This document shows, piece by piece, positions 41,652-46,047 of a DNA stretch of 64,000 nucleotides. This stretch comes from Pseudodesulfovibrio aespoeensis Aspo-2 (GTDB taxonomy: Bacteria > Desulfobacterota > Desulfovibrionia > Desulfovibrionales > Desulfovibrionaceae): the NCBI RefSeq assembly GCF_000176915.2, contig NC_014844.1, positions 3,038,001 through 3,102,000 on the forward strand. Reading direction: 5' to 3'. The notes under the pieces were generated by a model. That model saw only the letters and a program-made list of their open reading frames with translations. It searched no databases and was not told the DNA's origin. The position numbers were made by a program, and so were the translations under genes. Each line of letters starts with the position of its first letter. The stretch's first letter is position 1.

Positions 41652-42191
41652 TCAGCTCCGGACAAGACAGACACGGTCTTCGTCGTCGCGCTCGACCACC
41701 ATGACGTTGACATGCTCATCGCCCAGGGTATCGAGCTTCTTGCCCACATAGTCGGCCTGGATGGGCAGTTCGCGATGCCCCCTGTCCACCAGGACCAGCA
41801 GCTCCACGCGCCGGGGCCTGCCGTAGTCGAGGATAGCCTCCAGGGCCGCGCGGGTGGTGCGCCCGGAGTAGAGCACATCGTCCACCAGCACGACGGACGC
41901 GCCCTCGATGTCAAAACCTATCTCGGAACAGTTGATGGTGGGCGCAAGCTCCAGGTTGGTGGTCCAGTCGTCGCGGTAGAGGTTGATGTCGAGCTTGCCC
42001 AGGGGAATCTTGCGCCCCAGCCGCTCGTCGAGCCGTCGCTTGAGCCGCTCGGCAAGGTCCGCCCCGCGCCGCTGGACGCCGATGATGACCAGCCGCTCGT
42101 CCTCGCCGCGGCGCTCAAAGACCTCGAGGGCCAGCCGCTCCAGGGTTCTGTCCATATCCCGCGCGTTCAGGATGGTGCCGCATTCTTTCAT
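41652..42191 (-). CDS. pyrR: Pyrimidine operon regulator / uracil phosphoribosyltransferase PyrR
   Basis: This 179-residue protein has the phosphoribosyltransferase signature VVLVDDVLYSGRTTRAAL near residues 101-118 and the usual PyrR N-terminus (ARDMDRTLERLALEV). PyrR proteins bind pyr-operon leader RNA in response to UMP/UTP and have weak uracil phosphoribosyltransferase activity. No pyrimidine genes are adjacent, so here it may act at a distance or as an enzyme. The coding start at 42191 is the family start. Confidence 0.9.
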   Translation of the reverse strand: MKECGTILNARDMDRTLERLALEVFERRGEDERLVIIGVQRRGADLAERLKRRLDERLGRKIPLGKLDINLYRDDWTTNLELAPTINCSEIGFDIEGASVVLVDDVLYSGRTTRAALEAILDYGRPRRVELLVLVDRGHRELPIQADYVGKKLDTLGDEHVNVMVVERDDEDRVCLVRS

Positions 42192-42292
42192 CTCGTGCCT
42201 CGCTTGCCCGTGGGACGTGTTGCAACGTCTGAAATTATCCCATCAATCACGGGGGGTCAACAGCCACGCCGGATTCCCCCCTTTTTTTGCGT

Positions 42293-42321
42293 TTGACAAA
42301 GCGCATCTTTGATCTTACCTC
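42293..42321 (+). promoter_or_regulatory. Likely sigma-70 promoter of the HesB-like selenoprotein
   Basis: TTGACA at 42293-42298 is followed, 16-17 nt later, by a weak TTACCT/TACCTC. It lies about 35 nt upstream of the first HesB-like gene. A G-rich and C-rich pair around 42251-42281 followed by T runs lies just before it. Confidence 0.45.
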
Positions 42322-42353
42322 TTCCTTTCCCGACCATCGAACAGGAGGCACCA

Positions 42354-42677
42354 ATGCTTGATGTAACAGACGCCGCCAAGAAGCAGCTCGAAGGCTACTT
42401 CAGCGACAAGACCCCTTCCCCCATCCGCGTGTATCTCGCGGAGGGCGGTTGAGCAGGCCCTCGCCTGACCCTGGCTCTGGACGAGCCTAACGAAAAAGAC
42501 GAAGTATTCGAGACGGACGGATTCACCTTTTTGATCGACAAGGGCCTCAAAACCCAGACCGGCGCGGTAAAGATCGACATGACCTACTACGGTTTCGTCG
42601 TCGAGTCCGAGAACCCGGTCGGCGGCGGCAGCAGTTGCAGCACCGGCGGGTGCAGCAGCGGCTCCTGCTCCTGCTAG
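42354..42677 (+). CDS. HesB/IscA-like selenoprotein (in-frame TGA at codon 33)
   Basis: Read through one TGA, this gene gives 107 residues of the IscA/HesB A-type Fe-S carrier family. The TGA (42450-42452, residue 33) lies in AEGG-TGA-AGPRLTLALDE. The neighbouring paralog has ADGGCSGPRLSLALDE with Cys33, so the TGA stands for that conserved Cys, most simply as selenocysteine. A hairpin (CAGGC at 42454-42458 with GCCTG at 42463-42467, or an overlapping GAGC/GCTC pairing) sits directly downstream where a bacterial SECIS is expected. HesB-like selenoproteins are known in deltaproteobacteria. Cys95, 100, 105 and 107 form a tail. AGGAGG precedes the ATG. Confidence 0.85.
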
Positions 42678-42702
42678 ATCAGTCCGACCGACCGTTGACA
42701 AA

Positions 42703-42734
42703 GCGGCGTCTCGTTATGGGACGCCGTTTTTTTT
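42703..42734 (+). terminator. Rho-independent terminator after the selenoprotein gene
   Basis: A 7-bp CGGCGTC/GACGCCG stem (42704-42710 with 42720-42726) is followed by eight T. It separates the two HesB-like genes into different transcripts. Confidence 0.85.
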
Positions 42735-42745
42735 CACCTAGCCAC

Positions 42746-42773
42746 TGGACAAGCAATGGTTACTAGTTACAAT
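42746..42773 (+). promoter_or_regulatory. Sigma-70 promoter of the Cys-type HesB gene
   Basis: TGGACA (42746-42751) and TACAAT (42768-42773) are 16 bp apart, about 30 nt before the start codon. The second copy therefore has its own promoter. Confidence 0.65.
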
Positions 42774-42803
42774 AAGCGAAACCCAACCAACACAGGAGAT
42801 GCC

Positions 42804-43136
42804 ATGATCACCGTAACCGAATCCGCCCAGAAGGAACTGACCACCTACTTTGAGGGCAAGAAAATCGAACCCATCCGATTGCATCTGGCCGACGGCGGCT
42901 GCTCCGGCCCCCGCCTCTCCCTGGCCCTGGACGAAGTGCGCGACGGCGACAAGTCCGTGGAGCAGGGCGCGTTCACCTTCCTGATCCAGGAAGAACTGGC
43001 CGAGGCCGCAGGTGCCATCACCATAGACATGTCCCAGTACGGCTTCCAGATCGCCTCGGAAAACCCCATGGGCGGCGTCTCCGGCTGCGGCTGCTCCTCC
43101 GGTGGCGGCTGCTCCTCGGGAAGCTGCGGCTGCTAG
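42804..43136 (+). CDS. HesB/IscA-like protein (Cys form)
   Basis: This 110-residue protein is the cysteine-containing paralog of the upstream selenoprotein. The single N-terminal ligand Cys33 lies in ADGGCSGPRLSL. A longer Gly/Cys tail (SGCGCSSGGGCSSGSCGC) provides further cysteines. A-type carriers hold and transfer Fe-S clusters, and IscA family members use this Cys plus C-terminal ones. The two genes are about 50-60% alike by eye, suggesting a duplication in which one copy gained or kept selenocysteine. AGGAG precedes the ATG. Confidence 0.85.
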   Translation: MITVTESAQKELTTYFEGKKIEPIRLHLADGGCSGPRLSLALDEVRDGDKSVEQGAFTFLIQEELAEAAGAITIDMSQYGFQIASENPMGGVSGCGCSSGGGCSSGSCGC

Positions 43137-43156
43137 AGCCGATCCACACCACCCAA

Positions 43157-43200
43157 AACGCAAGGCCGACAGGGAGTTCTCTCCCTGTCGGCCTTGCGTT
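43157..43200. terminator. Bidirectional terminator
   Basis: A perfect 20-bp stem (43157-43176 with 43181-43200) and a TTCT loop. The plus strand continues TTTTG and the minus strand is flanked by TTTT-like sequence, so it can stop transcription in both directions. Confidence 0.88.
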
Positions 43201-43281
43201 TTGTCGGCCCCAATCAAAAGGGGCGACGCTCCTGGCGCCGCCCCATCCGATGAGGACCGCAATCCCGGACGAGAGCCGGGG

Positions 43282-44520
43282 TTAACCGAAAGTCCTTTCG
43301 TCCACGAGTCTTGGCGCGTCCGCCGGGAGCGTGCCCGGCCTGACCACCTCGACCACGGGTCTGAGCTTCATTGTGGCCTGGAAATCAGCGGCAAAGGCGT
43401 CTGCATCGATTTCCACCGCTGTTTCCAGTAGCACGACAAGGGCGTCTCGTCCACCCGGATTCCTCACCCTGATCTGCCACGCACACACATCGGGATACCG
43501 GGCGCACACACCCCCGGCCTGACCCGGATAGATGAACTGCCCCTTGACCTTGGCCGTGTCGTCGGCCCGCCCCTTCCAACCCGTCAGCCTGCGCGCCGTG
43601 CGCCCGCAGCCGCACTTCGAAACGTCAATGGACGACAAATCCCCCGTGGCCAGCCGCACCAGCGGATACTCGGTGAAGAACGGGGTGACCACCACCTCGC
43701 CCACCTCGCCGTCGGCCACGGGCTCACCCGTGGCCGGGTCGCAAATCTCCACATGCCGGAAGTTGGACAAATGCATGCCGCCAAGCTCCATGCACTCGTA
43801 GGCGATGCAGCCCACGTCCGCCGTGCCGTACCCCTGGCGCACCGTGATGCCGAACATCTCCTCCACCTCGCGCCGCAGGCTCTCGGGCAGCGGCTCGGCA
43901 GCCACATACGCCTTCTTGAGCCGAAAATCCCGCGCCAGATCATACCCCATGGCCACCGCCTTCTCGCCGATCACCTTGAGATAGCTGGCCATGCCCACAA
44001 AGGCCGTCACCGGCAGCCGGGTCATGAACTCGACCTGCTTCTCGGTATTGCCCGGCCCGGCCGGAATCACGGCGCACCCGATGGCCCGCAGCGGCTGCTC
44101 CAGCATCAGCCCCGCCGGAGTCATGTGGTAGGAAAAAGTCATCTGCGCCAGATCACCGGGCCGGAACCCGGCAGCAAAGAACCCCTCGGCCCACGCCCAG
44201 TAATCCGGCTCCGCGCCCTCGGGATCAAATATCGGCCCCGGCGACTGGTAGATCCGCCCAAGCCGCCCCGGCTCGCACCCCAGGAACCACTCAAGGCCAT
44301 GCTCGGCCTGCAACCCGATGATCTCCCGCTTCCTGAGCACCGGGATCCTGCCGAAATCCTCAAACCCCTTGAAATCCTTGGCGCACGCCCCAAGGCCCTC
44401 CAGCCGCGCCCGAAACTCGCCCGACGACCGCTCGGCCTCAAGCAGCACCTCGCGCACCGCCTTCCACTTGCGCTTCATCCGCTTCTCGCGCGGCTCGGTC
44501 TCATACTCGTGATAATACAT
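43282..44520 (-). CDS. Phenylacetate-CoA ligase-like AMP-binding enzyme
   Basis: This 412-residue adenylate-forming enzyme is close to the PaaK family. Visible features are the loop YQSPGPIFDPEG, the middle region SYHMTPAGLMLEQPLRAIGC, the adenine/acceptor segment QGYGTADVGCIAYECM, and RLTGWKGRADDTAKVKGQFIYP. These enzymes convert an aryl or acyl acid to a CoA thioester. It is the last gene of a minus-strand cluster with liv-type transport genes, so it probably activates an imported carboxylic acid. Its GGAGG ribosome site lies inside a repeated intergenic element. Confidence 0.8.
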   Translation of the reverse strand: MYYHEYETEPREKRMKRKWKAVREVLLEAERSSGEFRARLEGLGACAKDFKGFEDFGRIPVLRKREIIGLQAEHGLEWFLGCEPGRLGRIYQSPGPIFDPEGAEPDYWAWAEGFFAAGFRPGDLAQMTFSYHMTPAGLMLEQPLRAIGCAVIPAGPGNTEKQVEFMTRLPVTAFVGMASYLKVIGEKAVAMGYDLARDFRLKKAYVAAEPLPESLRREVEEMFGITVRQGYGTADVGCIAYECMELGGMHLSNFRHVEICDPATGEPVADGEVGEVVVTPFFTEYPLVRLATGDLSSIDVSKCGCGRTARRLTGWKGRADDTAKVKGQFIYPGQAGGVCARYPDVCAWQIRVRNPGGRDALVVLLETAVEIDADAFAADFQATMKLRPVVEVVRPGTLPADAPRLVDERTFG

Positions 44521-44528
44521 AGAAGGAT

Positions 44529-44600
44529 GCCTCCGGCGGCCAGAGAACCTTTTGAAAAAGGTTCTCTGGACTCTCCAAAACTTTTTGGCTCTCCGCCGCC
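44529..44600. repeat. 72-bp repeated intergenic element, copy A
   Basis: This copy matches 45704-45776 almost base for base. It starts GCCTCCGGCGGCCAGAGAAC, contains a hairpin (AGAGAACCTTTT with AAAAGGTTCTCT) and ends CTCCGCCGCC. Read on the minus strand, its left end supplies the GGAGG Shine-Dalgarno 9 nt before the PaaK-like ATG. Confidence 0.85.
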
Positions 44601-44800
44601 TGGAAGAACCCAGGACAACCTGGTCATTGACGGCGGCGAAGATGGCGTTGATCTTCAACAGTCAACCCCAGCTTACGACAACTCCAAAAAAAGCTCCACC
44701 ATGACCGACTCTTTTTCATCCAGGCCCAGCCCCTCTGCTCACCCCCCGCCCCACCCACAAAACGTTTAGGGGAAAGGAGGGGTTGGGGGTCTGGGGGAAG

Positions 44801-45696: not shown

Positions 45697-46047
45697 GTGG
45701 TTTGCCTCCGGCGGCCAGAGAACCTTTTCGAAAAAGGTTCTCTGGACTCTCCAAAACTTTTTGGCTCTCCGCCGCCAGGCTGGGCTGGGAGAACCAAGCG
45801 ACGGAGAGCGGCGGAGATGGCGTAGATGCTCGAAAAAGCGAGCTTTTTATTGTTGTTTCGCACAAAGGGCCGCTCAACGCGGACATGCGCCCCTCTACGC
45901 CGCCATCAAACTCTCCCAAATTTCCTGCCCTTCCTGGCGGTGGAGCCCCAAAAAGTTTGGGAGCAACGGGCCGAGGCGACATAATTTCTTTCCCGGTGCT
46001 AAAAACAGAAGGATTCCCCAACTAATTTAGCGACGCAGCACTTACTG
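45697..46047. other. Intergenic region with repeat copy B
   Basis: This 351-nt stretch holds repeat copy B (45704-45776) and a GCTCG-AAAAAG-CGAGC hairpin with TTTTT near 45829-45851. A TTTGGGAG/CTCCCAAA pair flanks 45912-45965. No coding signal was found. It marks the left boundary of the AT-rich sulfotransferase gene. Confidence 0.55.
45704..45776. repeat. 73-bp repeated intergenic element, copy B
   Basis: This is copy B of the element at 44529-44600, with a single extra base in the hairpin loop. Its left end supplies, on the minus strand, the Shine-Dalgarno of livF. Similarity continues weakly on the right side (GGCGGAGATGGCGTAGATG versus GGCGAAGATGGCGTTGATC). Confidence 0.85.

Follow-up and report, generated by a model that had tools for sequence, protein, structure and literature searches.

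The locus

The window analysed here comprises 64,000 nucleotides of the genome of Pseudodesulfovibrio aespoeensis Aspo-2 (positions 3038001-3102000 of a single contig of 3,629,109 bases). It contains two tandem HesB/IscA-family genes, the first with one in-frame TGA, at codon 33 (Table 1). Between the TAG of this gene, in the following called the Sec gene, and the ATG of its Cys-containing paralog lie 126 nt.

Table 1. Features at the HesB-like locus (positions in the window)
Feature	Position	Strand	Details
Divergent phosphoribosyltransferase gene	41652..42191	-	PF00156, 73.3 bits
Sec-containing HesB/IscA-family gene	42354..42677	+	ATG 42354; 107 codons; TAG stop 42675-42677
UGA codon, predicted selenocysteine 33	42450..42452	+	Aligns with first conserved Cys of HesB/IscA proteins
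Hairpin right after UGA	42454..42467	+	Predicted here; not conserved in family
SECIS hairpin GGCUC-UGGAC-GAGCC	42473..42487	+	Apical loop 42478-42482; 25 nt between UGA and loop
Flexible Gly/Ser/Cys tail, residues 92-107	42627..42674	+	Cys 95, 100, 105, 107; pLDDT <50
Terminator-like hairpin and U-run between genes	42700..42734	+	13-bp stem; -20.5 kcal/mol; z -6.5
Sigma-70-like promoter TGGACA-16-TACAAT before Cys paralog	42746..42773	+	Consensus scan
Cys-containing paralog	42804..43136	+	ATG 42804; TGC at codon 33

Apart from the TGA the frame of the Sec gene is open over its full length, and the TGC of the paralog stands at the matching codon in the same GGxxGPRL context. Both products finish in a Gly/Ser/Cys-rich tail. 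From these features a HesB-like selenoprotein had been proposed in the original prediction, and all of them were found again; the standard list of open reading frames indeed splits the gene at 42354-42677, as had been anticipated for a conventional reading. A sequencing error at the TGA, which had been named as a possible objection, is unlikely because the genome is a single contig and because the same TGA is present in Pseudodesulfovibrio pelocollis, a near relative that has a segment of 91% identity, and in other relatives.

We then compared 282 family genes, distinct in their first 240 nt, from 184 fetched loci that hold family genes. The loci are those that were returned or asked for, the search was for genes either intact or interrupted by TGA, and 108 of the 140 Sec genes stem from the window's own family. 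At codon 33 this set shows TGA in 140 genes, Cys in 126 and other codons in 16, which is the pattern expected of a selenoprotein, namely an in-frame UGA where homologues have Cys. Elsewhere in the first 85 codons no TGA occurs in any of the 282 genes. The placement of TGA at one column across the family is more than chance.

The divergent phosphoribosyltransferase gene, which we take to be PyrR-like, is the most widely kept neighbour, with homologues upstream and divergent in 95 of the 184 loci and under 33 genus labels; an AMP-binding-enzyme gene lies downstream in 28 loci. In the 16 neighbour clusters that recur most widely (flanks of a few kb, inspected mostly by eye, with Pfam annotation for the window's own neighbours) we saw neither an operon partner nor an Fe-S assembly gene. 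The Rfam scan of the window gave no match at gathering score, and there is no tRNA in the window. A 54-nt direct repeat with 96% identity at 44550-44603 and 45726-45779, each copy having a 32-nt repeat beside it, appears to be a small intergenic element.

Selenocysteine machinery

A search for selA, selB, selD and tRNA-Sec had been suggested as a check, and all four are present in this genome, each above its cut-off (tRNA-Sec 82.3 bits, SelB 372, SelA 600, SelD 326). The organism's own selD (L018, G000:C1:3326258-3327184) is itself interrupted by one in-frame TGA. Such a TGA is found in many SelD selenoproteins.

Across the class, 320 of 348 genomes contain a match to the NCBIfam model NF038090, over the cut-off in 292, and tRNA-Sec was detected in 288, leaving 60 negatives. 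The TGA form, defined as a TGA-bearing match of at least 45 bits, was found in 68 of 75 tRNA-Sec-positive genomes picked for diversity. Among the negatives 27 are at least 90% complete and 24 of these have a family match, but it bears the TGA in only two of them, G249 and G250 (2/24 vs 68/75, Fisher p 6e-14). SelB is present in both exceptions and also in G342, whose family gene has no TGA. In the 21 near-complete genomes that have a family gene and in which neither tRNA-Sec nor SelB was found the TGA form does not occur; a TGA in a weak 24.5-bit match of one of these genomes (G184) was not counted as family. A further 13 tRNA-Sec negatives, less than 90% complete, carry the TGA form, five of them together with SelB. 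The other eight, at most 84% complete, yielded neither tRNA-Sec nor SelB, which we attribute to missing contigs. The seven tRNA-Sec-positive genomes without the TGA form all keep SelB, one of them (G008) being only 63% complete; Sec is therefore dispensable. In an even draw over the phylum 206 of 395 genomes have a family match, 17 of these genomes belonging to the window's class, and the Sec form is present in all 27 loci obtained outside the class.

The SECIS element

The original prediction placed a hairpin directly behind the TGA. Such a hairpin is predicted here, but it is not conserved across the Sec genes and was rejected as the SECIS element. The expectation of a SECIS after the TGA is nevertheless borne out by frozen synonymous sites and compensatory pairs in a second hairpin, which begins 21 nt past the TGA (+21 to +35). 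Folding placed its apical loop at +26 to +30 in 131 of the 140 Sec genes, and the loop reads UGGAU in 111, UGGAC in 28 and UGGAA in one. A further family-like gene, weak at 50 bits (L183, at 3213 of the strand read, genome G020), has its TGA in the same position and shows the loop variant UGGAA.

Where Sec and Cys genes share an amino acid, the synonymous codons at this element are frozen in the Sec genes: GCT for Ala in 139/140 vs 24/118 Cys genes, CTG for Leu in 140/140 vs 75/118, and GAG for Glu in 139/139 vs 41/89. At codons 2 to 5 past the TGA the two kinds of genes differ little (p 0.05 to 0.7). The outer stem pair +21:+35 covaries (G-C 106, U-A 28, A-U 3, C-G 1) and is paired in 138 of 140 genes, a value reached in none of 10,000 shuffles, which ignore relatedness (mean 90, maximum 106). 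An inner pair is compensated from U-A to C-G in one gene. Taking the five core and two flanking pairs together, 85% of the cells pair in Sec genes and 45% in Cys genes, compared with 18-52% when slid; the two flanking pairs are weak (91/140 and 44/140). In the 27 loci from outside the class the Sec forms carry the element as well, apart from a one-base loop change in L246, and GCTCTGGAYGAG is absent from the four Cys genes in these loci.

According to a 2026 review, in the part available, bacterial SECIS elements have a loop of 3-9 nt, a stem of 4-16 bp, a G in the first two loop positions, 16-37 nt between UGA and loop and a minimal free energy of at most -7.5 (PMC13188914). The hairpin in the window has the 5-nt loop UGGAC with G at position 2, a 5-bp stem and a distance of 25 nt. 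Folded by itself the 15-mer has an energy of -6.9 and falls short of the limit; 22 nt give -8.1 and +1 to +40 give -15.8, so that the limit is reached only with flanks included. The fold from +1 to +40 (-15.8 kcal/mol) has a z of -2.5, a longer stretch of 56 nt only -1.1.

Family, fold and cysteine tail

The assignment to the HesB/IscA family, made originally from the letters alone, agrees with Pfam, NCBIfam and the predicted fold. The Sec gene scores 117.8 bits and the Cys paralog 102.7 bits against NF038090 (IscA_HesB_Se, cut-off 85), and against Pfam PF01521 (Fe-S_biosyn, gathering cut-off 26.3) they reach 37.3 and 37.2 bits; these two are the only PF01521 matches found in the genome. We found no difference between the Sec gene and the NF038090 family, and, to judge by the name of the model, its curators regard the family as one of selenoproteins. 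TIGR01911 (HesB_rel_seleno), which the 2026 review names as the model for HesB-like selenoproteins with the motif UxGP (PMC13188914), has this motif in common with the Sec gene as far as its description goes, but is matched weakly (40.7 bits), under its cut-off of 66.35.

An AlphaFold2 model built with 61 family sequences has a mean pLDDT of 82; 62 of the 107 residues reach at least 90, whereas residues 92-107 stay below 50. A Foldseek search with this model gave ten PDB structures at E <=0.001; IscA and SufA stand at the top and DsrR is tenth. With VIA-align the predicted model superimposes on IscA 1s98 with Z 11.8 over 88 residues. The A-type carriers IscA and SufA (1s98, 1x0g, 2d2a) share the predicted fold at Z 10.7-11.8 and 19-23% identity, and in a sequence alignment Sec33 falls on the Cys of the GGCSG motif in the related chains 1nwb and 2apn. 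The same fold is seen in DsrR of Allochromatium vinosum (2k4z, Z 10.3). DsrR is associated with the dsr genes and is not known to possess the ligand cysteines.

The ligand motif of A-type carriers is given as C-Xn-C-G-C-G, with Cys 35, 99 and 101 of IscA (37, 101 and 103 in the holo structure) as candidate ligands and the role of Cys35 disputed, in the part of the report available (PMC5471300). The Sec gene differs from this motif in that the first Cys is Sec and in that the tail has three or more spaced cysteines instead of CGCG. The CGCG motif occurs in none of 140 Sec genes and in 7 of 126 Cys genes. At least three tail cysteines are present in 138 of 140 Sec genes, and among the 61 sequences C95 and C105 are invariant and C100 is nearly so. 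It is plausible that Sec33 serves as an Fe-S cluster ligand.

The Cys paralog and its predicted promoter

The Sec and Cys copies have distinct promoter sequences with a terminator hairpin between them. In the region 42150-43300 one sigma-70-like site was found, compared with a mean of 0.3 in shuffled sequence. The hairpin at 42700-42734 was reported neither by the consensus scan nor by the perfect-stem script. This script finds a terminator within 150 nt downstream of 59/140 Sec and 44/126 Cys genes, and a terminator between the twins was therefore rejected as a general rule. In the genus the Sec promoters have TTGACA in 27/27 and CTTACCT in 25/27 cases, boxes which appear at 1 and 2 of 28 Cys copies, respectively; 20 of the 28 Cys copies have a CTnnACA-type box. 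A palindrome-like sequence and possible operator, AGGAATNATTCCT, lies between the promoter boxes in part of the genus g1 Cys copies including that of the window (42746-42773), with weak statistics: a perfect palindrome is present in 4 of 20 Cys-copy promoters of the genus and in 6% of shuffles, uncorrected for relatedness. In the genome of P. aespoeensis the pattern occurs once, at the Cys gene itself.

In 76 loci, of which 75 belong to the window's family, a Sec gene and a Cys gene occur together. The order is Sec-Cys in 63 of these loci and Cys-Sec in 13, the latter in genera g23, g17, g36 and g18. Within the fetched set 81 of 107 f1 genomes with a Sec gene also hold a Cys gene. In other families the Sec gene is mostly without a Cys gene (24 of 33 genomes, fetched non-exhaustively) or the pair is unlinked. 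In genus g39 (L038, L040, L043, L139 and others) there is a third tandem HesB-like copy in which Cys33 is lost (Ala, Asp or Glu) and the tail cysteines are kept.

Sec and Cys forms on the tree

In the phylogeny the Sec genes are interleaved with the Cys genes. For 66 genes, chosen largely as pairs, a careful tree implies 22 Sec/Cys changes, of which starred branches force at least 13; this count is free of direction and about that of shuffled labels. A single Sec clade was rejected (p-AU 2.6e-73). On a quick tree of 270 rows 33 changes are needed vs 88 with shuffled labels, at least 12 being forced; the labels cluster, as is expected since near relatives are in the set. The trees are carried by 87 columns only and their details are therefore unsure. 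The interleaving would be explained by duplications that recurred together with a Sec/Cys change, or by old gene conversion.

We also searched the Cys copies for fossils of the SECIS element. GCTCTGGAYGAG is present in 6 of 126 Cys genes, with 4.6 expected from codon use, and we make no claim from this as to a Sec-to-Cys direction. One of the six, the Cys copy of L021, has a close Sec gene as its twin, a single case of little weight.

Discussion

The core interpretation, that the TGA is read as selenocysteine, is supported by the findings above. In the mechanism we favour, the SECIS hairpin (+21 to +35) would direct SelB and tRNA-Sec to insert selenocysteine at UGA-33, so that the gene would be translated in full. 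The product would be a small protein of the IscA/HesB fold in which Sec33 replaces the first cluster-ligating Cys of A-type carriers and the floppy tail contributes three or more further cysteines. A labile Fe-S cluster, or iron, would most likely be held between Sec33 and the tail cysteines, probably across a dimer, and handed to client proteins, in a genome with no other PF01521 protein found. The neighbouring Cys copy would be a separately transcribed isoform of the same kind, and the two may divide their labour. We consider this whole reading, from full translation with Sec33 to a likely Fe-S or iron carrier with a Cys isoform, to be probable, if by no wide measure.

That the gene is a pseudogene or a sequencing error, the TGA ending a fragment of 32 residues, agrees with the break in the standard list of reading frames; the same TGA in 140 genes, the strict SECIS and the association with tRNA-Sec and SelB make this extremely improbable. 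The biochemical role is less settled. Instead of carrying a cluster, the selenoprotein might be a thiol/selenol redox or metal-binding protein, either forming a selenenylsulfide between Sec33 and a tail Cys or binding a soft metal. A predicted flexible tail without CGCG and with at least three cysteines in 138 of 140 Sec genes would suit such a protein, and the 2026 review, in the part available, anticipates that most uncharacterised selenoproteins will have redox roles and holds that Sec-ligand interactions need confirmation (PMC13188914). A carrier role is weakened by the lack of CGCG in all 140 Sec genes, by the lack of an Fe-S assembly gene in the 16 most widespread neighbour clusters and by the HesB-like selenoprotein of M. 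maripaludis, the gene of which could be disrupted with the mutant still fixing nitrogen (PMC11097638). Yet Sec33 corresponds in fold and position to the first ligand Cys of IscA, the motif is UxGP and not UxxC or CxxU, and the same 16 clusters show no redox partner gene, and we regard the redox or metal-binding role as unlikely.

For the twins it is quite possible, though not what we expect, that the Sec gene is the working gene and that the Cys copies are passing duplicates, born from the Sec gene, which drift and die without a fixed backup role. In the window's genus the mean pairwise identity is 80% for Sec genes and 57% for Cys copies, some third copies have lost Cys33, and the rejection of a single Sec clade fits as well. 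Against this, the Cys gene is retained in the 81 of 107 f1 genomes mentioned above, Cys genes without a Sec partner occur in genomes that lack the Sec trait, and in g39 the Cys copies are as conserved as the Sec genes (88% vs 87%). Somewhat more doubtful appears the idea that the interleaving reflects gene conversion between old paralogs rather than repeated switches. The pairs of one genome group together in many lineages, unlinked pairs too, and a few blocks of eight codons are identical or nearly so between twins (L021 1.00, L082 0.96, L031 0.92-0.96 at the end). However, in 13 loci inspected there is no longer identical tract, and the third-base identity at identical residues ranges from 22/53 to 48/63.

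The Sec gene belongs to a selenoprotein family which has been in print since 2006, and the original prediction was right in treating HesB-like selenoproteins as an established kind; their UxGP motif is in print (PMC13188914). A list of 2006 includes members from D. vulgaris and D. desulfuricans (PMC1794560), and that of D. vulgaris was given as DVU_1382 in 2007 (PMC1914089). They belong to the same HesB family and have an in-frame TGA, and the comparison with DVU_1382 is by description; in the portions available these reports describe neither a tandem Cys twin nor SECIS covariation. The literature search for DVU1382 or DVU1383 gave PMC1914089 as the sole paper naming either in the literature searched, and none among the matches listed joins Pseudodesulfovibrio aespoeensis with a selenoprotein. 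The M. maripaludis protein was found by mutagenesis and 75Se labelling, and its function is called not clear in the available text (PMC11097638). The present analysis adds four aspects, namely the link to the Sec trait across the order, the covariation in the SECIS, the pattern of tail cysteines and the turnover of Cys twins; they were not found in the literature searched, a small part of the whole. The repeated side-by-side Sec and Cys copies are less well described than the family itself, as are their standing as the only PF01521 matches found in this genome, their interleaving in the phylogeny and their different promoters with a terminator hairpin between.

As to the exchange of the two residues, the accessible part of the 2006 study counts two Sec-to-Cys and no Cys-to-Sec events for the HesB-like family (PMC1794560), and the 2026 review, in the part available, describes changes from Sec to Cys as rare and largely confined to FdhA and SelD (PMC13188914). 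The at least 13 forced changes among 66 genes, direction-free and mostly from pairs, contrast with this 'rare'. Tentatively, and with more doubt than belief, one may go further and suppose that most Sec-decoding Desulfovibrionia use a selenolate IscA-fold Fe-S step in which Sec33 ligates a transferable cluster, that the Sec/Cys twins are their sole such carriers, and that the Cys twin has repeatedly been re-made from the Sec gene as a selenium-independent isoform.

Members of the family occur across the phylum, and many genomes hold a natural Sec/Cys pair. These pairs are a testable system for the question why an Fe-S-type protein would use selenium and also for how often Sec and Cys swap.
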